Shown here in pieces: positions 1 to 9,721 of a DNA stretch of 64,000 nucleotides (the first letter of the stretch is position 1; the number at the start of each line of letters is the position of its first letter). The stretch spans positions 1-64,000 of the forward strand of contig NZ_JALKBC010000015.1 in NCBI RefSeq assembly GCF_023015865.1, read 5' to 3'. Source of the stretch: Arenibacter sp. F26102 (GTDB lineage Bacteria > Bacteroidota > Bacteroidia > Flavobacteriales > Flavobacteriaceae). Under the pieces are notes generated by a model. The model saw nothing but the letters and a program-made list of their open reading frames with translations. It ran no database searches and was not told the DNA's origin. The position numbers and the translations under genes were made by a program.

Positions 1-48
1 TACGTAATACCGTGAACGTTTCTCGCTATATAAAATATAAACGAACAT
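1..48 (-). CDS. GIY-YIG nuclease, N-terminal fragment running off the left edge
   Basis: The first 48 bases, read on the minus strand from an ATG at 48-46, encode the same first 16 residues (MFVYILYSEKRSRYYV) as the two complete copies to the right. The gene leaves the window at position 1, so nothing can be said of its C-terminus. It shows that the array continues leftwards by at least one more unit. Confidence 0.85.
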   Translation of the reverse strand, partial: MFVYILYSEKRSRYYV

Positions 49-60
49 ATTCTATCTTTC

Positions 61-180
61 TTGGGGTGGTCACGCCCAAAGCGTGACGACCTCCGCGTCC
101 CAAACGCGGCGCGATAACAATACCATTGGCTTTGCAAGCCGGGCTAGACCTGCCACGCCGTCAGCGTGGTACACCCCGAA
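61..180. repeat. Palindrome block, copy 1: four hairpins closed by an outer stem
   Basis: Perfect or near-perfect inverted repeats lie one after another. The outer stem pairs 61-68 with 172-179 (GGGGTG/CACCCC core). Hairpin A is 69-87 (GTCACGC/GCGTGAC), hairpin B 93-109 (CCGCGT/ACGCGG), hairpin C 128-140 (GGCTT/AAGCC) and hairpin D 152-170 (CCACGC/GCGTGG). Together they can fold as a multi-armed, cloverleaf-like structure. The block is clearly more GC-rich than its surroundings and overlaps the C-terminal codons of the GIY-YIG gene. The fold was drawn by hand; no energy was calculated. Confidence 0.8.
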
Positions 181-408
181 ATGGTCATCTATAAAACGTT
201 TTGCTCCTCTTTTCTTTATTCGCCGCTCCAAAATTAAGGCTTCCGAGCGGGACAATACTTCCAGTTGCAAAACTAATTTCCAAGGGGCTCCACTCTTGGT
301 AGAAGGAACAATCCCGAGGTTATGTCTTTTCAATCTTTTTATTGTATCCGTAGTCTGACCTACGTAATACCGTGAACGTTTCTCGCTATATAAAATATAA
401 ACGAACAT
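70..408 (-). CDS. Small GIY-YIG nuclease-family protein, array copy
   Basis: 112 residues. The N-terminal ~80 residues are a single GIY-YIG domain: the VYIL and YYVG strands (the GIY-YIG signature), then an Arg in the IKRLKRHN helix and a Glu in the SEALILERRIKK helix that match the catalytic Arg and Glu of the family. The family includes UvrC-like, homing and uncharacterised stand-alone endonucleases, and the substrate here is unknown. The last ~33 residues are rich in Ala, Val, Leu and Arg, do not look like part of the fold, and are encoded by the palindrome block at 61-180. The next copy lies 21 bp upstream on the same strand. Nuclease activity is likely from the conserved residues, but the biological role is open. 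Confidence 0.85.
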   Translation of the reverse strand: MFVYILYSEKRSRYYVGQTTDTIKRLKRHNLGIVPSTKSGAPWKLVLQLEVLSRSEALILERRIKKRGAKRFIDDHFGVYHADGVAGLARLAKPMVLLSRRVWDAEVVTLWA

Positions 409-420
409 ATTCTATCTTTC

Positions 421-540
421 TTGGGGTGGTCACGCCCAAAACGTGACGACCTCCGCGTCCCAAACGCGGCGCGATAACAATACCATTGGCTTTGCAAGCC
501 GGGCTAGACCTGCCACGCCGTCAGCGTGGTACACCCCGAA
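421..540. repeat. Palindrome block, copy 2
   Basis: Same block as 61-180, shifted by 360 bp. The only change is G to A at 441, in the loop-proximal pair of hairpin A. It gives a G-U wobble in minus-strand RNA but a C-A mismatch in plus-strand RNA. Confidence 0.8.
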
Positions 541-768
541 ATGGTCATCTATAAAACGTTTCGCTCCCCTTTTCTTTATTCGCCGCTCCAAAATTAAGGC
601 TTCCGAGCGGGACAATACTTCCAGTTGCAAAACTAATTTCCAAGGGGCTCCACTCTTGGTAGAAGGAACAATCCCGAGGTTATGTCTTTTCAATCTTTTT
701 ATTGTATCCGTAGTCTGACCTACGTAATACCGTGAACGTTTCTCGCTATATAAAATATAAACGAACAT
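430..768 (-). CDS. Small GIY-YIG nuclease-family protein, second array copy
   Basis: 112 residues, identical to the copy at 70-408 except for Phe instead of Leu three residues from the end. The other two base differences in the coding region (562 and 568) are synonymous. It has the same GIY-YIG domain with conserved Tyr, Arg and Glu positions and the same palindrome-encoded tail. The Leu to Phe change arises from a G to A change at 441. On the transcribed (minus) strand this turns a C-G pair of the first hairpin into a G-U wobble, so the predicted RNA stem survives. Two intact adjacent copies argue that the product is either selected or being copied together with the repeat. Confidence 0.85.
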   Translation of the reverse strand: MFVYILYSEKRSRYYVGQTTDTIKRLKRHNLGIVPSTKSGAPWKLVLQLEVLSRSEALILERRIKKRGAKRFIDDHFGVYHADGVAGLARLAKPMVLLSRRVWDAEVVTFWA

Positions 769-780
769 ATTCTATCTTTC

Positions 781-900
781 TTGGGGTGGTCACGCCCAAA
801 GCGTGACGACCTCCGCGTCCCAAACGCGGCGCGATAACAATACCATTGGCTTTGCAAGCCAGGCTAGACCTGCCACGCCGTCAGCGTGGTACACCCCGAA
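781..900. repeat. Palindrome block, copy 3, at the right end of the array
   Basis: Same block as 61-180, shifted by 720 bp. The only change is G to A at 861, which falls just outside hairpin C in an unpaired position. The array's homology ends exactly with the outer stem of this block. Confidence 0.8.
790..900 (-). pseudogene. GIY-YIG gene remnant, C-terminal tail only
   Basis: This holds the stop codon and last ~36 codons of a third copy. Homology to the repeat ends at 900, and the frame upstream runs into unrelated AT-rich sequence with no start codon or nuclease domain. What remains is almost exactly the palindrome-rich block (781-900), not a random fragment of the gene. Confidence 0.8.
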
Positions 901-1057: not shown

Positions 1058-4000
1058 CTATCTATAGAGGGTAAAATGTCCGAAAAATTGCTGTTTATCT
1101 TCATCGTTCGCATTCACTTCATACCAATAGTCTCCAGAAGGCACTGCCTTGCCCTCATAATTACCATCCCATCCGGATACCTGGTTCAAAATGGCCACTA
1201 CCCTTCCATAACGATCATATATCTTGACTTCAATATTTGGAAAATAATCCCTATTTCCTGGATACCATTCATCATTCATATTATCCCCGTTGGGTGTAAA
1301 GAAATTGGGAACCTCCAACATACCAGTGAACTTAAAGGGTATGGTTATGGTTGCCTCACACCCCATTAGATCTACCACTCTTACATTAACATTGGCATCT
1401 TGATTGGATAAAAACACATTTACTGCGCCATAGGAATCCCCTTGGAAAAAATACTCATAACCTCCATAGCCCCCTGTGGCCGTAGCCGTTACCTCATTAG
1501 GACCAGTTTTTATTGCCGTCAAGGTCAGGGGCTCATAGGCCTCCACACTAAAGTCAATAGATGTTGCACATCCATTTTCATGGTAGATATAAACAGTATG
1601 GTCACCTGCGCTCAAATCACCAAAAACTGTTTGTGTATTGGCCATGGTCATATCGTCAACATCCAATGAAAATAACAATCTTGGCATTAAACTAGCATCC
1701 GTCATACGAATGGTGACCGTACTATTGGGGAATATCCCTTCACAACCGTATTCCACAATCGGCTCAGAACTTAGGTCTACACCGATCATGATCGGAACCA
1801 CTACGTTTGACTCACAACCCATGGCATCCTGAACAAACACCACATATGTTTCTCCTCCCATAAGGTTATCGAAAAACAAAGTATCGTTTCTAACAAAAAC
1901 TTCATCCCCAACAGAGTTTGGACCAATCATCTTCGTCTCGTAATATTCTACCCCGCTCAAGGCATCCACAAAAGGCGTTCCTCCCACTATAGTCAGCTGT
2001 GCGGAACCGTCCGAAGCATTAATACAGGTTTCCGGTGTAGTTTCCACATTGGCCACTAACAATTCTTCCGGTTCCGTTAGGATCAACGTACTTTTCTCAC
2101 TACAACCTTTTTCATCTTGAATTAATATTTCATAGGTCCCTGGAGCAAGGTCGGTAAACATAAATTCATTAGGGTTCAAGGGGTCGCTGAAAAATTCGTT
2201 AAAGTCTGGCGAAATAGCAAACTGAATCAACCCCTCCCCTCCTGATGTCACTTCTATACCAATGGAACCATCCATCAAACCATTGCAAGTAATCGGGTTG
2301 GACACTATGCTAAACTCAATTGGAGCTGGCCGGACAATTTCTAATGGACCTTTTATATCACCGCAAATTAGTCCACTTGTAACACCAATATAATAATCTG
2401 TTCCCTCAGGCAAGCCTTCAAAAGTACCATCATCCTGCGCAGGTCTAAAAATACTGGAAGATGCATTTGGAGAAAATGGATTTCCAGGATCTCCCAAGTA
2501 TAGGGTATACTGATAGTTCCCTACACCACCGGCTGCGAACGATTCAATCCTACCATCCAATTCAGAGGCACAGGAAATGTCATCTGGTAAATTAGGAACT
2601 AACTCAACTTGTTCCGCATCTACAAGACTTATCCCTTGAGACCGAACATTATTACAAACATTAAGGCCCAAAATATCCTTCTTACGAATATCATATTGAT
2701 AAAATCCAGGTCCAACATCAATCAATGCAAAACTACCGATCATGTCCATATATGGATCAGCGGGTGCCGAATCATAAGCCCTATATTCATATGCAAAACC
2801 CACTTCCGGGTTCTCCACACTAAGTCTTATTTGCCCATGTCCACCACAGCCTGGGGCCTGAACCTGTACTAATCTAGGTTGAATAGGTGGTGGCGGATTA
2901 ACATAATATGGTTGCGTAATACCAATACAACCATAACTTGATGAAACTTCTATAGCATACCAGCCTGCACTTATAAATCCTCCAGTTGTACTTTCAAATG
3001 TTGGCGCATCTTGCAGTCCACTTCTGGACAACTCGTCAATTATATCGTTGCTGCCCAAATAGATCAACTGGTATTTATAGCCTGCTCCCAAAACACCGCC
3101 CGAAGCTCCTGCCGTTGCGGTTAAAGCGTCTCCCGTTGTGGGGTCAAATGCCTCCAGGACCGCGTTGTTACCTCCAGGACACACCAAGCTTTGCGGTTCC
3201 CTTATACCCGCAATGATGGGGTCAATAGAACTTAACAAAACATCAAAAGTAGCCTCGCACCCCTCTACATCCCTAATTGAAATCCTATAATTACCACTAG
3301 CAAGATTATCAAACTCATTGTTGGTGCCAAAAACAATAGTTTCAACAAAGTTATTGCTCCCCAATGGGGTTTCTATAGAAAGGGAATACTCATAGGGCAC
3401 AATATCCCATCCTCCTAAACCTGTAGCCTCTATCTTGCCCGTATTGTCGTTACAACTAACGTTGCCTATTTCCAAAGCGCTTATGGTTAAAGGTCCGTTT
3501 GGCGTTCTTATGGTTGCAACATTGCTGATTCCAGAACACTTTGGATTTCCTTGCTCCTTAACAACTACTCTAAAACTACCTCCAGGAAGATCTGTTATTA
3601 CTGCTGGGTTTCCTGAAACTGACATATCAATAATTCCATTCCCATTGGTAACCGGAGTGGATCCTGAAAAATCACCTCCATTGGTAAAGCCAATATCATT
3701 AGGACGATATATCCAATATTCATAAATCCCACTATACGGTTGTAATTCAATATTTAATGCGCCATCATCCGCTCCAAAACAACTAACAGGCTTGGCTTCG
3801 GCTATGGTTACAGTAGGTACAATGGGTGCATCAACAAAATGCGGTTCTATTGGGTAGTCACACCCTCCTGCATCAGAGATGAGTAGGCGATATTCCCCTG
3901 CCTGCATTGGAAGATCAAAAGTCACAGAAGACCCACTAGGTTGATTCACATCGGAAACAAAAACAATCGAAGATCCTTGATCTCTAATTGTGAAATTTAA

Positions 4001-7000
4001 AGTTCCAGTTACGGTTACTGTAATATTTTCAGGGTCTTCACAATTCATAGGCGTATTCCTAGTAATTACCGCAGTTACATTACTTGGTGGATCTAACACA
4101 ATCGGAGCCGGAATCACAAATTCACAACCATTATTATCCACAGCATATACATCAAAGGTCTGTTGTGACCCTGTGTCTATAATTTCAAAATCAAATGTAT
4201 TCCCTCCCGTCTGATAACTATCTGTCGCATTCAGCTTATATCCATAAGGTCCACCATTTCCGAAATCAGTTACAGTTGCTGTGATTGTAGTTGTACTAAA
4301 ACGGTTTGCACCAGTTTCGCATAGGAACGGCGGTGCACTGGCAACTATAGCAAATATCGGAGGCTCTATAATTACAACCTGCTGCTGATCAATACAACCT
4401 CTATCAGTAACAACTTCAACTACATAGGTATTGGGCCCTAATCCGGAAAACGAACCGGATACATTGGTTGCAACAGGGGTAGCGGCCCCGGACAATGGCA
4501 AGCTGCCTACATACAAATTGAACTCTTGGATACCATCAGTATCCGTATTAGGTACCAATGAAACATTTATGCTACCATCACTTAGACCATTACAACTCAC
4601 ATTACTTTCTCCCGTGCTAAATATCGATGGTTGCACAGGAGCCAAACTAATAATGTCTTCTACCAGATAAGAACACGCTACAGCTGGAATACCTCCTGTT
4701 ACCTCCCTATCAGTAACCAGAACCTCATATGTTCCTGGCAATAAATTACTAAATACACCATTATTGGTTTGAGTGTAGGAAACAGGATTTCCTAAATAAT
4801 CTGTTCCCGTTAACAGATATTCAAAATCACCACTACCACCATCTGCCGTGACTGTTATCTCTCCATCATTATCCTCACAAGTAGGAGGTTGCGTAAATTC
4901 CCCAAAGGCTGATAGGACTTGGTATACCTCAGCAACGTCGTTTACAAAGCATCCATTTGCATCGATTATATGCACTGGAAAGCTTCCTATTCCAAACACT
5001 GTAAATGTAGCCTGTGTTGGAGATCCTGGAACATAAATTGGTGTTTGACTTACTCCATTTAAGGTAAACGTAGGTGTGTCGATATTACCAGGCATTTCAA
5101 CTATTATGGTAAATCCACCTGCGGGTGTTGTAACGTCACACTGGTTATCTACCGTAATATCAGGTGCTGGCAATGGTGGATCCATTTGAATAACTGCCGC
5201 GGACGTGCGGTACTCACAATTACGCGAATCCCGCACCCATATATCATAATTTGTTCCTGGCGCCAATGAACCTGCCAATGCTACTGTAGAAATATTGCTA
5301 AAATCATCCGAAAGGTCCCCTGGAGTAAGTGTACCATCCCTGTCGACAGCTGCTCCGGAAGGAACAAAAGCATATTCATAGGGGCCACCAGCTCCTCCGC
5401 TACCTCTAACTGTAAGTTGCCCAAGCGCATTACAATTAGCATTTTGATTGCTAATCACGTCTACTCTAGGTGAATTGGTAAATATTGTAATGGTATCACC
5501 ATCAGCGCATCCGTCGGTATCTACCACTACAATTCCGTAATTACCTGGCTCATATCCTATAAACGATCCTGTCGTAATAGCGGTTGTCCTTGTGTCCACT
5601 ACCTCACCCGTATCTAAATTTGTCAGCTCAATTTCCAAGCTTCCTACCGCACCTGTAACTGTATAATCTAAATCATATTTTATTTGACCGGTCGGGTCAC
5701 AAGCACCATCTACAGAAGTTAATGCCACCTCTAAAGATGAGGCTCTTTCAGGGGATTCTATAATTTGCTCATAGTAACACCCTGTTCCCTGATCGAACAC
5801 TTCTACCGTAAAAGACTCACCTGCCTGTATATTTGGGAAACAATGATTTCGAACTATAGGAGCTCCCCCCAAAGGAATCCACGAATTGGCTGGTATTTCA
5901 ACCCTACGAATATTAAAAGGCCCCGTACCGCCCGCAATGTCCACACAATGTGTAAAACCAGCTGCATTACAAGTGGTCGGGATAGTTGGATCCGGAATAA
6001 TAATGACTTCGTTGGAGCCTATTGTTAAAGAATCTTCATCCACACATCCCCTAGAATCGATAGTAATTACACGATAATTACCTTGTACCAAAGCGGAATC
6101 TTCAATCGTTAAAGGAATATCTGCTGCAGTAATATTATGCTGAATATATAATTGATTCCCAAAAACATTTTCAACTATAATCGTAAAGTCTGGTACTCCA
6201 TCCGCGATATTGTCAATTATCACCCCTCCTGACGCAATGGTTGTTGCTGAACATGTTGCATCAATAGGTGTGATGGATGTGTTTGGTGGATCAATTCCAT
6301 CGTCTGCAATGGTGACCGAGGCAATTGTAGTAATACAGCTATTGGCATCCTTTACCAAATATTCATAAGTACCTGCAGATAAACTGGAATATACAGTTTG
6401 ACTACTAAAATTATAAGTATTTGTAGGGTCGGGATTGTTAGGATCTTCCACCAAGACCCCCACCGGCGCCAAAACCACCTGAAAAGGTGGTAATCCGGAA
6501 GATACGGTTGGAATTACCTCTATAAAACCACTGTTCGGGTCTGAACAACTAGGTCCAACTGCGCGATGTGTAGCAGCTATTGGTGCAGGTTGTGCAAAAG
6601 TAATTGGACTAGAAATATTGGTACAACCGTTATTATCGGTTATCTCTACGGTATAATCACCACTACCAGCAAAAGGCACGGTATAATTGAACGGATTCGA
6701 AGGTATGGCACCGCCATCAACGGGATTACCATCCAATAAAATGATATAGGAAGTTGCACTTAAATCAGCGATATTCCCACCATTTACCCGAATTTCCAAT
6801 TCGCCATTGCCACCACAAGGAATTTCGGTAGCTACATCTAAGTTTATTTGTACTTGAGGCGGAATTCGTACTGTAATGGCATCAGAACAATTATTACCAT
6901 CCACTACTTCTATAGTGTAATTTCCCGGTACCAAATTATTAAAAGTAAAAGTACCAGCTGTTCCTGGAGTCTGTAATGCTCCGCCATTTATTCTATACTG

Positions 7001-9721
7001 GTGAGTTCCTAAACTAGCGGAACCGATTGCGGAAGTTACGGTTACCGAGGCCCCATTTATCGCGGAATAACAAAAATCGGTTACACCTTGGGAAATAGTA
7101 GGTGCCGAAACCGCTGTTAGGGAAAAAGTATCAGTCTCAATACATCCTTCAGAATCTATTACGGTCAACGTATAATTACCTTCCAAAACTAAATTCCCAA
7201 AAGTCCTATTAGTTCTCGGTCCCTGGGTTACAAAACCTGTAGGACCGTCTAACTGATACTTATATCCGCCAAAGCCATTACTTGCTACACCTTGAACCCT
7301 ACCTACATTATTATTTTGACAGCTCATTGCAGTTACATTAGTTGAAACAGCAAGAGGCAGTGATGGTTCCTCAATAATAAGATCAGCTGTACTTGTACAA
7401 TTGGTTGTGTTATCCGTAACACTAATAGTATACGTCCCTGCCCCAAGATTTGTTGCAGGCACTTCCAAATTGCTGGTACTTCCACTCAAACCTGTACCAG
7501 AAATTGTATAAGTATACCCTCCAACAGGATCAAAACCATCAACAAGAAATGCTCCATAACCATCTGTTTCAGTAGGACAAACTTTTCTGTCGCCACCAGA
7601 TTTAACTCTGGCCCGTATTGTACTAACCCCTCCCGTTGTAAAACTAGCAGAATAAACACATCCATTATCATCTGTTATTTCAAATTGATAGGAAGTATCC
7701 AATATCAAGCTATTAAAAACATTACCCACTTGTGTCCGCGAAATAGGAGACACAATTTCATATTGAGAAATACCTACTCCACTTGTTACATTAACTGTAA
7801 CACTACTAGTACTAGAAGCACAATTAATATTATCTTGATAAAAATCAATAGCCGAAGGTTGTTCAGCTTCATTTACAACAATGGGCGTTAAAGTTTGATA
7901 ACAACCTGCATCATCCTTAATATATGGAATATAGGTACCAGGTGCTAAACCAATAAAACTAGTTCCTCCCTGAAAATTAACATTGTCCAAACTATATTCA
8001 TAACCTGTTCCAGACCCCCCACTTGCAGGGCCAAAATCAATAATTCCACCTCCATTTGCGCAGGTATAATCTTGACTTAAGTTTGCTGAACTTGTTATAC
8101 CACCAACACTGCTAACCGTAACGGGGGGCAATACCATTGTACAACTAAATCCACCTTGTTGATAACGCACTTCTATATTGTTATAAGTACCATCGGCAAC
8201 AGGTAACTGTGGAGTTGTTACCCAAGGATCTGTACCTATACTGCGATAAGACAAATTATACCCCTTTGCATCTACTACATTAAAATTTAATTTGGCGCCC
8301 CCATTGGTACAGGTACCATCTATTCCACTAACGGTGATGTTAGGTGGAGTTAATTCCTCCACACTCGCAGATGCCGTAATGGTACATCCATTACTATCGG
8401 TAATTAAAAAGTCGTAGGAACCTGGACTTGTTACGGTATAGACCGTATTATCGGAATATGTACTACTGCTAGGTCCCGTACCGTTTACTATAAATGTATA
8501 TGGCGCAGTTCCGCCCGAAGTTCTAACGGTTATGCCCACACTGGCAACACTACAACCAAAACTATTATTGACCTCGGTAGAGGCATCCAATGCTACAATC
8601 CCATCTCCTATAACTATAGGGTTTCCATTTACATCCAGATTTTGGGATGGAGGAGAAATCCCTAAGGAAGGGTCTCCTTTACATTGCTGTGTTTCTACCC
8701 TTACACTATAGGTGCCAAAACCCACTGCACTAAAAACATAATTGTCAGCGGCAATAAAAGAGGTAAATTCTTGGGGTGCACCAAATTCGTCCAATAGTGT
8801 ATACTTATAGGGACCAGGGACATTATTGACTTCAACCGAGACGCTTCCGGTATCCCCGCTACACTGCGCATCCACAAATGTTAAATCAATTGCTATATCC
8901 CTTTGCTCAATGACAATAGGATCATACAGGTATTCACATGTATTCTGTGTATTTTGCAACCTTGCTTTAACCACATAGGTCCCGGGCGTCAAATTATCAA
9001 AAATAGCTCCTTGCCATGGCCCAAATCCACTCCCATTATCAATACTATACTCATAGGCACTGGAAAGATTGGTGATTTGAATTCTTCCCGGAGCACCACA
9101 AATAAAATTTCTTTTTACAAATGTTTGGGTTACGGTGCTTTTCTTAACATTAAAATAATAATACGAACCAGTGCCATTTACCCTAACCCTATAGCCTGCA
9201 CCTGTTGAAGAATTGATGGCGCTCGCATCTATATTAAATGTATTACTAGGGCTTATAGTGGTCCAACAACTAAGGTTGGTATTGGCACATTTATCATCTA
9301 CATTAAAAACACATCCACCAGTTGGAATAAATTGTTGCCATTCATAACTACTATAGACCCCCTGCAACACCACAAGCCTATCATCAAAGTCACCACAAAG
9401 GGAATAACTTGCCATAGAACTGCCGTCATTGCTACAATTTTCGTAAGCATCCGCATTGGTAATGATCGTTGGTAACATCATTGGACTCGAAATGGCATCA
9501 TCTATAACCTCTTCTAAAATATTAGTGGGAGCGTTATACAGCAGGTTACTTTTTTGGAGCTGAAGATCAGGCAATTCGGTCGAATTTATATTTTCAACCG
9601 CAGAACTAACGTCAGCCATAAGCTCGTAAACTATAGAGTTTGCCTTCGATACACTAAACACAATGCTTAGGGCTATCAAAAGTAGGGCATAATATAAATG
9701 CCTTGTTTTTTTTGGGAGCAT
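1058..9721 (-). CDS. Giant SprB-repeat adhesin with T9SS type B sorting domain
   Basis: 2887 residues. An N-terminal signal peptide (residues ~1-28) is followed by an unrepeated head. Then come some 30 modules of roughly 80-95 residues (estimated by eye) resembling SprB repeats: each has a conserved Cys followed by a DGS/DGxI turn (for example VSCNGLSDGSINV and ITCNGLMDGSIGI), a GG-Y-xY-S strand and a PGTY-V-V-D-xxGC ending. The last ~85 residues contain NFFTPNGDNMNDEW and VKIYDRYGRVV, the gliding motility-associated C-terminal domain used as a T9SS type B signal. In this family such proteins are exported by T9SS and serve as mobile surface adhesins in gliding or attachment. It is monocistronic with its own terminator. 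No gliding machinery genes are in the window, so a motility role is inference. Confidence 0.95.
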   Translation of the reverse strand: MLPKKTRHLYYALLLIALSIVFSVSKANSIVYELMADVSSAVENINSTELPDLQLQKSNLLYNAPTNILEEVIDDAISSPMMLPTIITNADAYENCSNDGSSMASYSLCGDFDDRLVVLQGVYSSYEWQQFIPTGGCVFNVDDKCANTNLSCWTTISPSNTFNIDASAINSSTGAGYRVRVNGTGSYYYFNVKKSTVTQTFVKRNFICGAPGRIQITNLSSAYEYSIDNGSGFGPWQGAIFDNLTPGTYVVKARLQNTQNTCEYLYDPIVIEQRDIAIDLTFVDAQCSGDTGSVSVEVNNVPGPYKYTLLDEFGAPQEFTSFIAADNYVFSAVGFGTYSVRVETQQCKGDPSLGISPPSQNLDVNGNPIVIGDGIVALDASTEVNNSFGCSVASVGITVRTSGGTAPYTFIVNGTGPSSSTYSDNTVYTVTSPGSYDFLITDSNGCTITASASVEELTPPNITVSGIDGTCTNGGAKLNFNVVDAKGYNLSYRSIGTDPWVTTPQLPVADGTYNNIEVRYQQGGFSCTMVLPPVTVSSVGGITSSANLSQDYTCANGGGIIDFGPASGGSGTGYEYSLDNVNFQGGTSFIGLAPGTYIPYIKDDAGCYQTLTPIVVNEAEQPSAIDFYQDNINCASSTSSVTVNVTSGVGISQYEIVSPISRTQVGNVFNSLILDTSYQFEITDDNGCVYSASFTTGGVSTIRARVKSGGDRKVCPTETDGYGAFLVDGFDPVGGYTYTISGTGLSGSTSNLEVPATNLGAGTYTISVTDNTTNCTSTADLIIEEPSLPLAVSTNVTAMSCQNNNVGRVQGVASNGFGGYKYQLDGPTGFVTQGPRTNRTFGNLVLEGNYTLTVIDSEGCIETDTFSLTAVSAPTISQGVTDFCYSAINGASVTVTSAIGSASLGTHQYRINGGALQTPGTAGTFTFNNLVPGNYTIEVVDGNNCSDAITVRIPPQVQINLDVATEIPCGGNGELEIRVNGGNIADLSATSYIILLDGNPVDGGAIPSNPFNYTVPFAGSGDYTVEITDNNGCTNISSPITFAQPAPIAATHRAVGPSCSDPNSGFIEVIPTVSSGLPPFQVVLAPVGVLVEDPNNPDPTNTYNFSSQTVYSSLSAGTYEYLVKDANSCITTIASVTIADDGIDPPNTSITPIDATCSATTIASGGVIIDNIADGVPDFTIIVENVFGNQLYIQHNITAADIPLTIEDSALVQGNYRVITIDSRGCVDEDSLTIGSNEVIIIPDPTIPTTCNAAGFTHCVDIAGGTGPFNIRRVEIPANSWIPLGGAPIVRNHCFPNIQAGESFTVEVFDQGTGCYYEQIIESPERASSLEVALTSVDGACDPTGQIKYDLDYTVTGAVGSLEIELTNLDTGEVVDTRTTAITTGSFIGYEPGNYGIVVVDTDGCADGDTITIFTNSPRVDVISNQNANCNALGQLTVRGSGGAGGPYEYAFVPSGAAVDRDGTLTPGDLSDDFSNISTVALAGSLAPGTNYDIWVRDSRNCEYRTSAAVIQMDPPLPAPDITVDNQCDVTTPAGGFTIIVEMPGNIDTPTFTLNGVSQTPIYVPGSPTQATFTVFGIGSFPVHIIDANGCFVNDVAEVYQVLSAFGEFTQPPTCEDNDGEITVTADGGSGDFEYLLTGTDYLGNPVSYTQTNNGVFSNLLPGTYEVLVTDREVTGGIPAVACSYLVEDIISLAPVQPSIFSTGESNVSCNGLSDGSINVSLVPNTDTDGIQEFNLYVGSLPLSGAATPVATNVSGSFSGLGPNTYVVEVVTDRGCIDQQQVVIIEPPIFAIVASAPPFLCETGANRFSTTTITATVTDFGNGGPYGYKLNATDSYQTGGNTFDFEIIDTGSQQTFDVYAVDNNGCEFVIPAPIVLDPPSNVTAVITRNTPMNCEDPENITVTVTGTLNFTIRDQGSSIVFVSDVNQPSGSSVTFDLPMQAGEYRLLISDAGGCDYPIEPHFVDAPIVPTVTIAEAKPVSCFGADDGALNIELQPYSGIYEYWIYRPNDIGFTNGGDFSGSTPVTNGNGIIDMSVSGNPAVITDLPGGSFRVVVKEQGNPKCSGISNVATIRTPNGPLTISALEIGNVSCNDNTGKIEATGLGGWDIVPYEYSLSIETPLGSNNFVETIVFGTNNEFDNLASGNYRISIRDVEGCEATFDVLLSSIDPIIAGIREPQSLVCPGGNNAVLEAFDPTTGDALTATAGASGGVLGAGYKYQLIYLGSNDIIDELSRSGLQDAPTFESTTGGFISAGWYAIEVSSSYGCIGITQPYYVNPPPPIQPRLVQVQAPGCGGHGQIRLSVENPEVGFAYEYRAYDSAPADPYMDMIGSFALIDVGPGFYQYDIRKKDILGLNVCNNVRSQGISLVDAEQVELVPNLPDDISCASELDGRIESFAAGGVGNYQYTLYLGDPGNPFSPNASSSIFRPAQDDGTFEGLPEGTDYYIGVTSGLICGDIKGPLEIVRPAPIEFSIVSNPITCNGLMDGSIGIEVTSGGEGLIQFAISPDFNEFFSDPLNPNEFMFTDLAPGTYEILIQDEKGCSEKSTLILTEPEELLVANVETTPETCINASDGSAQLTIVGGTPFVDALSGVEYYETKMIGPNSVGDEVFVRNDTLFFDNLMGGETYVVFVQDAMGCESNVVVPIMIGVDLSSEPIVEYGCEGIFPNSTVTIRMTDASLMPRLLFSLDVDDMTMANTQTVFGDLSAGDHTVYIYHENGCATSIDFSVEAYEPLTLTAIKTGPNEVTATATGGYGGYEYFFQGDSYGAVNVFLSNQDANVNVRVVDLMGCEATITIPFKFTGMLEVPNFFTPNGDNMNDEWYPGNRDYFPNIEVKIYDRYGRVVAILNQVSGWDGNYEGKAVPSGDYWYEVNANDEDKQQFFGHFTLYR

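Follow-up and report, generated by a model that had tools for sequence, protein, structure and literature searches.

Probable Self-Restoring GIY-YIG Nuclease Cassettes at tRNA Genes of Arenibacter and Other Bacteroidota

Introduction

The window analyzed here is a stretch of 64,000 nucleotides that begins at base 1 of contig C6 (NZ_JALKBC010000015.1) in the 5.44 Mb genome of Arenibacter sp. F26102. This article concerns a tandem array of small GIY-YIG nuclease genes at its start, and in particular the 120-bp palindrome-rich block at 61-180 that accompanies each gene. On the minus strand, this block is a displaced copy of a tRNA-Pro(UGG) gene that has been disabled by hairpins. The block belongs to a cassette that comprises a broken tRNA copy, usually with a GC-rich hairpin in a loop, a nuclease gene of about 80 residues encoded on the strand of the tRNA, and an intact copy of the same tRNA. 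The pairing of broken and intact tRNA, the shared strand, nuclease clades specific to one tRNA, hairpins at loops, tandem units and a scar without nuclease are all seen directly in the sequences compared below. We consider it likely that this is a self-restoring, tRNA-gene-specific cassette that behaves like a free-standing homing element. Loci or stretches are labeled L, contigs C, and genomes other than that of the window G.

A Hairpin-Disabled tRNA-Pro Copy in the Window

The features of the array are as follows, all on the minus strand.

1..900: tandem array, 2.5 units of 360 bp, each unit a hairpin-disabled tRNA-Pro copy and a GIY-YIG gene
61..180: remnant copy 1 of tRNA-Pro(UGG), from by-eye comparison with the intact tRNA-Pro at L022:4089-4166 and from folds
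421..540: remnant copy 2 of tRNA-Pro, a repeat of the block, with a minus-strand C to T change at 441 that retains a G-U pair
781..900: remnant copy 3 of tRNA-Pro, a further repeat, outermost on this side, its tRNA 5' end abutting the flank at 901
61..68: 3' strand of the former acceptor stem, pairing with 172-179
69..87: hairpin in place of the T-arm (GCAGG TTCGAAT CCTGC became GTCACGC TTTGG GCGTGAC)
93..109: tRNA-Pro anticodon arm, loop TTTGGGA, anticodon TGG
128..140: hairpin GGCTT/AAGCC, the second of the two D-arm insertions
153..169: hairpin CCACGC/GCGTGG, the first of these insertions
172..179: 5' strand of the former acceptor stem, pairing with 61-68
70..408: GIY-YIG nuclease open reading frame (ORF), 112 aa, domain at residues 1-78, last ~33 residues running into the tRNA remnant, PF01541 E 1.3e-11
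430..768: second copy of the GIY-YIG nuclease ORF, 112 aa
1..48: start of a further GIY-YIG copy, 16 codons long, truncated by the contig end

Contig C83 terminates in the same array, and there a genome search finds the last GIY-YIG gene followed by an intact tRNA-Pro with anticodon TGG. Contigs C6 and C83 both end inside the array, and we infer that C83 joins the first base of the window. By eye, the block and the intact tRNA-Pro lie on the same strand. The block keeps the acceptor stem (TCGGGGTG..CACCCC), the anticodon arm (CCGCG TTTGGGA CGCGG) and much intervening sequence; its D-arm is interrupted by two hairpin-forming insertions and its T-arm is swapped for a hairpin. Neither ARAGORN (0 tRNA genes called in the whole window) nor Rfam (no match in bases 1-1100 at E<=1) recognizes a functional tRNA in the block, so that its tRNA-Pro identity is visible only against the intact gene of C83.

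The nuclease matches the GIY-YIG profile PF01541 with 45.1 bits against a cut-off of 22.6 (E 1.3e-11). Residues Y5, Y16, R26, H30, and E62 are invariant among 16 diverse members and correspond to the catalytic GIY-YIG set Tyr/Tyr/Arg/His/Glu. Because these active-site residues are conserved, the enzyme is probably active. NCBIfam gave no match above cut-off, and a defense-system library gave weak partial matches only.

A first-pass annotation of the window had placed the block at the C-terminal end of each GIY-YIG gene and had read the encoded protein tail as a by-product. The placement holds for both complete ORFs of the window but fails for the terminal copy on C83, whose stop codon, TAG, lies inside the intact tRNA-Pro. 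The reading of the tail as a by-product is supported: in the intact tRNA-Pro the frame stops at GTG TAG, whereas in the remnant TAG has become TAC, so the frame continues for about 33 residues.

Other Arrays, an Empty Site and a Scar

The same design occurs elsewhere in this genome. Contig C8 carries three GIY-YIG copies upstream of an intact tRNA-Arg(TCG); ahead of each copy come tRNA-Arg bases 1-22, a hairpin CCCG(C/T)CCG..CGGGCGGG and bases 23-35. Contig C11 carries two copies upstream of tRNA-Leu(CAA), and ahead of each stand tRNA bases 1-24 and a hairpin. The three arrays have units of about 317-360 bp that contain only the nuclease ORF and the tRNA remnant, with no integrase.

A second tRNA-Pro(TGG) gene, on contig C33 (L023), has no cassette, and its likely filled counterpart is L079 of the congener G006. 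The two share closely similar, though not identical, tRNA-Ser, spacer and first tRNA-Pro bases, after which the insert begins in L079. The first-pass annotation had proposed a search for blocks without the nuclease, and one does exist in this genome. At L160:1380-1531 a 5' piece of tRNA-Asn with the hairpin TCCCGATAGCTATCGGGA is followed by the intact tRNA, with no nuclease gene between them; the congener G005 (L080) retains the nuclease at the tRNA-Asn site that is scarred here. Within the genus, the window protein is matched in 15 of 18 genomes, its own included (E<=0.001), and the number and place of these matches vary among the 18.

Distribution Across the Family, the Phylum and Beyond

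In the family, 86 of 149 genomes have a match at E<=1e-10. Our genus and family sample comprised 32 genus stretches and 69 family loci, mostly the best-scoring ones; the counts that follow cover 108 loci with a nuclease match. A tRNA was called in the stretch at 87 of the 108. It lay on the strand of the nuclease in 87/87 and closer than 200 bp in 85. Loci fall into class A, in which a partial 5' tRNA, the nuclease and the intact tRNA follow one another as in the window, and class B, in which the intact tRNA comes first and a partial 3' tRNA last. By the nearest called tRNA there are 62 class A and 25 class B loci, counts that place L135 and L142 in class A when they are actually class B, because ARAGORN called their remnant a tRNA, and that include in class B L072, which merely has a neighboring tRNA-Ser. 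L135 and L142 are class B tRNA-Val copies with a tRNA-like anticodon arm and another loop, reported by ARAGORN as a 'stop' or SeC tRNA, and remnants of this type might enter tRNA annotations.

Among the 21 loci without a called tRNA, L059, L070, L102, and L122 lie at contig ends. TRNA-like pieces with hairpins can be seen by eye in L102, L104, L116, L122, L127, L144, L148, L157, and L159; by the same reading no tRNA piece was seen in L027-L031 and L089.

Beyond the family, the tRNA-Arg-type protein was compared with 84,980 species genomes. Among the best 80 of 121 loci, 76 lie less than 250 bp from a tRNA, all 76 on its strand, with 67 in class A and 9 in class B. These 76 comprise 66 Bacteroidota, 4 Planctomycetota, one unassigned locus and one each from five other phyla (Gottesmaniibacteriota, Roizmaniibacteriota, Peregrinibacteriota, Balneolota and Fidelibacterota); they include five Arenibacter loci of the genus set, and some others duplicate family loci. 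In a search across Bacteroidota, 220 of 395 genomes had a match (E<=1e-12). One of its 30 best loci is from the window's own genome, and 28 of the other 29 have a same-strand tRNA no more than 250 bp away, 20 of these being class B. For comparison, the 39 tRNA matches in the 5.44 Mb of the Arenibacter genome put about 0.4% of its positions within 250 bp of one. The link of a structured element to a GIY-YIG nuclease, suggested at first pass, is thus regular and reaches well beyond this genome; the block itself is a modified copy of the neighboring tRNA gene and no free palindromic element.

Four more of the 21 loci without a called tRNA appear to lie at protein genes. In L087, L150, and L152 the GIY-YIG gene stands at the start of an apparent nucleotide-sugar enzyme gene, with a broken 5' piece of that gene upstream and the gene with a slightly altered 5' part downstream. 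The nuclease is bounded by inverted ends (A)CCCGTGAAAT / ATTTCACAGGT in L150 and L152 and by less exact ones in L087. These three are a protein-gene version of the same restore design. L143 has a GIY-YIG gene with ends ACCTGTGAAAT..ATTTCACAGGT inside another apparent protein gene, which we take to resemble a four-helix-bundle (23S intervening-sequence-type) protein. At L141:900-1330, four pieces of tRNA-Arg(TCT) bases 1-27 are spaced 78 bp apart upstream of the intact gene, with cassettes downstream.

Nuclease Type Follows tRNA Identity

The phylogeny of the nuclease tracks the identity of the tRNA. A tree of 103 domains and 75 columns was labeled by isoacceptor, with labels set by hand for L059, L102, L116, and L122 (contig ends or missed tRNA) and for L135 and L142 (remnant called as tRNA). 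The label changes 18 times over 87 rows, against an average of 59.8 in shuffles. When the tree is thinned to a single row for each genus and isoacceptor (63 rows, 14 states), 18 changes again suffice, whereas 300 shuffles average 46.0 and never need fewer than 40. Nuclease type is thus linked to insertion site, as in homing endonucleases. Groups that cohere across genera include His, Ser, Phe, Val, Arg-TCT, Leu, class A Pro-TGG and most Pro-GGG. For tRNA-Leu(CAA), class A and class B rows fall together in a well-supported 7-row clade; for Asn they fall in a 13-row clade that also contains Met and Phe, and for Arg-TCG in a 36-row clade that also contains other tRNAs.

The Hairpin in the Broken tRNA Copy

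Hairpins were scored by a GC-weighted stem against mononucleotide shuffles, with one cassette per locus. This score superseded a plain stem-length statistic that had been blurred by AT-rich terminators. The remnant side carries a strong stem in 69/96 class A and 26/33 class B cassettes, where shuffles expect 11.9 and 3.5; intact tRNAs reach the threshold in 15/96 and 3/33.

Position was tested by requiring exact six-base matches to the local tRNA on either side of the hairpin. After L091, whose hairpin is the tRNA's own anticodon arm, was dropped from 62 loci, 61 of 153 (56 of 145 distinct remnant regions) have a hairpin bracketed by exact tRNA sequence, with reversed tRNAs and tRNAs for other amino acids giving 0 and 0. 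A version allowing one mismatch was rejected, since its 86/153 came with 19 and 28 in the controls. The bracketed hairpins lie at a loop or a stem-loop boundary in 61/61 loci, in 28/28 combinations of tRNA and position and in 48/48 clean insertions, against a background in which 47% of tRNA junctions fall inside stem strands. These counts exceed the number of independent cases, since positions are partly shared by descent; a few junctions (after base 9 of Arg) are ambiguous between two readings, and replaced tRNA bases bias the test towards loops. The exact site seen most often follows the last base of the D-loop (GCTA|GAGC, AATA|GCGC).

One hairpin family, CCCGCCCG..CGGGCGGG, is found in Arg and Ala cassettes of flavobacteria, Val cassettes of Scalindua and Ile cassettes of Peregrinibacteria. 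Among 149 family genomes, 12 contain its pattern, with 27 occurrences in total (control 0). In L286 it lies in a broken tRNA-Val copy with no nuclease match within 3 kb. L281 and L288 have it in tRNA-Leu-like pieces near a contig end and say nothing on the absence of a nuclease, because the contig ends soon after. Other copies lie in DNA without tRNA, and L280 and L282 resemble plain terminators. At L286:1430-1660 the intact tRNA-Val is apparently nested inside the broken copy with the CCCGCCCG hairpin. The palindrome TCCCGATAGCTATCGGGA is present in 41 of 149 family genomes. Of 30 loci, one per genome, 4 are in or less than 200 bp from a tRNA and three more are at 287-371 bp; this dispersal led us to reject it as a cassette-specific tag. 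At L185:805-1780 it sits inside a tRNA-Pro call amid eleven tRNA genes on one strand, an odd cluster perhaps of phage or organelle origin.

Folding and Pairing of the Block

The four hairpins and outer stem drawn at first pass were recovered, each arm within one base: TCACGC/GCGTGA (69-87), CCGCG/CGCGG (93-109), GGCTT/AAGCC (128-140) and CCACGC/GCGTGG (153-169), inside GGGGTG (63-68) paired with CACCCC (172-177). Against 200 dinucleotide shuffles, the block folds better on both DNA strands (plus, z -3.77, 1/200 shuffles as good; minus, z -2.29, 4/200) and as minus-strand RNA (z -2.49, 2/200). The DNA centroids of both strands are the four hairpins within the outer stem, and the minimum-energy folds differ in part. 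In the minus-strand RNA minimum, the first hairpin pairs with the last because their arms are cross-complementary. The differences between copies leave the structure in place, with a G-U pair at 441 and an unpaired base, in the structure first drawn, at 861.

The annotation had also looked to covariation among relatives. In 15 genus remnants, pairing is kept in 96.7% of cells against 93.6% in shuffles (0/500 as high), and the covariation score is 0.110 against 0.054 (0/500 as high). Changes on both sides affect only 4 of 29 pairs (2/500 shuffles as high). One of the four is the outermost pair; three are in the anticodon stem and come from two L061 rows, whose CCTGC/GCAGG is the stem of their local intact tRNA. 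Pairing is thus above shuffles, but covariation is weak evidence for an independent structure because two-sided changes are few and mostly follow the local intact tRNA, and we did not accept it as proof of such an element. The D-arm hairpin varies in 1/6 pairs (a broken cell) and the T-arm hairpin in 4/7, so the new hairpins are evidence neither for nor against selection on pairing. The remnants L060 and L065 have a normal D-arm and look recombinant, which suggests exchange between copies.

Sister GIY-YIG Genes and the Flanks of the Array

This genome has six further short GIY-YIG matches, and the stretches read around them show no tRNA. Four of them, on C12, C22, and C66, are flanked by TCGACTNCGCTCNNCC repeats.

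L029:900-2820 (C66): sister GIY-YIG gene with TCGACTNCGCTCNNCC
L030:2345-2740 (C12): sister GIY-YIG gene with TCGACTNCGCTCNNCC
L027 (C22): sister GIY-YIG gene with TCGACTNCGCTCNNCC

Of 28 genome copies of TCGACTNCGCTCNNCC, 17 lie less than 1 kb from sister GIY-YIG genes, against 0 for a reversed-pattern control, and the C12 gene has one inverted copy on each side. A partnership like that of repetitive extragenic palindromes (REP) is therefore plausible for these sister genes. The earlier analogy with REP sequences and their RAYT enzymes may hold to this extent, as a link at sister genes of the same genome.

The genes flanking the array, at 1058-9721 of the window (minus strand, 2887 aa) and at L022:3000-3595 (plus strand), end towards it with a similar C-terminal stretch, FFTPNGDN..DYWY, which we take to resemble a type IX secretion sorting end.

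A Proposed Mechanism and Its Alternatives

In the mechanism that we favor, the nuclease would cut an empty tRNA gene in a loop region, near the position of the hairpin, and double-strand-break repair would copy the cassette into the cut. The cassette end would supply the tRNA segment lost to the insertion and so rebuild the gene; the host would retain a working tRNA because that end carries the destroyed segment. The hairpin would disable the displaced copy as a tRNA and would probably block re-cutting. Direct repeats would let cassettes multiply in tandem and occasionally delete the nuclease, which would leave a scar. The 120-bp block of the window would then be the displaced tRNA-Pro(UGG) copy, and its 33-residue tail the frame that enters it. 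For self-protection, our guess is a recognition site that spans the tRNA start and its native flank; such a site would be split by the hairpin in the remnant and would be missing from the restored copy, which has the nuclease gene as its upstream flank.

Several points weigh against this account. Cutting, mobility and spread are deduced from comparison of sequences. The restored tRNA holds the whole tRNA sequence, so a target internal to the tRNA would leave the host gene open to cutting; either flanking sequence must belong to the target or expression must be low. No DNA-binding domain is visible in the minimal protein of 75-80 aa. The empty L023 and the filled L079 differ in their downstream flanks, and L119 and L136 carry two intact tRNAs each. 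In the nuclease tree 55 of 100 forks are unresolved, and L105 and L154 (Pro class B), L155 (Asn), L121 (Ala) and Met and Asp rows stand apart from their own tRNA groups, so retargeting or tree error occurs. The stem is below threshold in 27/96 class A and 7/33 class B cassettes, a far-upstream control reached the threshold in 21/96 and 5/33, and some class B hairpins may be ordinary terminators. Part of the picture could also come from tandem tRNA-nuclease duplication without homing.

It is possible, though we doubt it, that the cassettes represent an undescribed kind of mobile element made up of nothing more than a minimal GIY-YIG nuclease and a GC-rich hairpin, with the hairpin placed precisely into tRNA-gene loops, the tRNA rebuilt by a carried segment, and REP-like partners of the same enzyme class elsewhere in the genome. 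An explanation closer to REP and RAYT is in our judgment unlikely. It would make the hairpin, or a single-stranded, hairpin-rich tRNA gene, the real substrate of a minimal structure-specific GIY-YIG enzyme that, by nicking or cutting at hairpin loops, inserts palindromes along with its own gene into loops of structured DNA; tRNA genes would be targeted because they fold when single-stranded. The exact placement of hairpins at loops and stem-loop boundaries fits this, although common descent makes the positions fewer than the counts imply. So do the CCCGCCCG..CGGGCGGG hairpins, which recur in different tRNAs and phyla and are also dispersed without a nearby nuclease match, and the clustering of TCGACTNCGCTCNNCC beside sister genes. 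The nearest structures after UPF0213 are those of SLX1, named a structure-specific endonuclease. Nuclease clades that track tRNA identity instead suggest sequence recognition, and the few TCCCGATAGCTATCGGGA loci at a tRNA imply that this palindrome spreads or persists independently too.

We give little credence to a host-useful function, in which the array would raise tRNA dosage or control tRNA expression, for example against tRNA-cutting defense systems or toxins, as SegB does in phage T6. The SegB report does describe SegB-driven tandem amplification of the tRNA-segB segment in T6 (PMC13096335). The two intact tRNAs at L119 and L136 also suit such a role, as does the position of the nuclease stop codon, which lies within the intact tRNA in 7/8, 19/31, and 51/60 class A loci (three partly overlapping sets), so that translation and tRNA processing may compete. 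What the arrays amplify, however, is the nuclease and the broken tRNA, usually with a single intact tRNA, and the variation in number and place of the window-type protein among genomes of the genus also counts against it. Passive hitchhiking, in which a GIY-YIG gene was caught in tRNA tandem duplications at hotspots and the extra tRNA decayed, seems to us the least credible of all. Remnants do decay, and L060 and L065 look recombinant, but this would leave unexplained the strict strand rule, the more than 12 tRNA identities, the match of nuclease to tRNA type and the hairpin at fixed tRNA positions across genera. An assembly artifact was rejected as a general explanation, as arrays elsewhere lie inside long contigs (e.g., 3.1 Mb for G118 C1 and 2.7 Mb for G140 C1).

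Relation to Known Systems

SegB, a GIY-YIG homing enzyme, is larger than the cassette nuclease. According to the SegB report, segB lies beside tRNA genes in phages T6 and T4, the tRNA-segB unit is amplified in tandem, and homologs in phages of several phyla, including Bacteroidota, co-localize with tRNAs of many isotypes (PMC13096335). The cassettes resemble SegB in a GIY-YIG gene beside tRNAs of many isotypes, in tRNA-nuclease tandem repeats and in homing logic. They differ in that SegB is phage-borne and the cassettes are on bacterial contigs. The T6 unit pairs a full-length tRNA-Tyr with a truncated segB (PMC13096335), whereas here a hairpin-disabled tRNA stands beside an intact one. As to a phage origin of the cassettes, the 78-aa window domain, a single cassette type used as query, had no tblastn match in 50,697 phage records (E<=1e-5).

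Islands and prophages with tyrosine integrases insert in tRNA genes, restore them by a carried segment and leave a displaced fragment. The cassettes appear to share all three traits, but they have no integrase, consist of one small nuclease gene in units of ~300-450 bp, and have their broken copy, with a hairpin, on the 5' as well as the 3' side. Group I introns with homing endonucleases also occur in tRNA genes and likewise place a nuclease gene within them; the cassettes instead carry a complete second tRNA copy and do not rebuild the gene by splicing. A group I intron was rejected on the presence of that copy and on the lack of an Rfam match in bases 1-1100 (E<=1).

RAYT (TnpA-REP) enzymes are HUH-type tyrosine transposases, and UPF0213 and SLX1 are cellular proteins. 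REP/REPIN sequences with RAYT are like the cassettes in tying a single nuclease gene to short palindromes and in having dispersed copies without the gene. Palindromes concentrated at a nuclease are found here at the sister genes, and those of the tRNA cassettes are partly dispersed. The cassette enzyme is a GIY-YIG protein rather than an HUH tyrosine transposase, and its palindrome is embedded in a tRNA copy. The nearest solved structures to the cassette nuclease are 1zg2 (UPF0213, E 1.1e-12) and 7wme (SLX1, E 2.1e-7), from which the cassette genes differ in their link to tRNA genes. A literature search that had few subscription papers and no bioRxiv in reach returned nothing on bacterial tRNA-gene GIY-YIG cassettes or on a pairing of GIY-YIG enzymes with REP.

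Significance

If the proposed mechanism is correct, tandem arrays would be a source of assembly breaks at tRNA genes, and the mechanism would be the likely reason why many GIY-YIG proteins carry odd tails derived from tRNA. The cassettes would offer a test bed both for how a 75-residue nuclease chooses one tRNA gene among about forty and for the role of a hairpin in a tRNA copy. Were they the undescribed kind of element considered above, they would be a GIY-YIG counterpart of REP/RAYT as well as a natural cut-and-restore drive on essential tRNA genes. As self-restoring homing cassettes, they would mean that essential tRNA genes are widely invaded by elements that break and rebuild them, with matches in more than half of the Bacteroidota genomes searched, and they would be a natural analog of cut-and-rescue drives.
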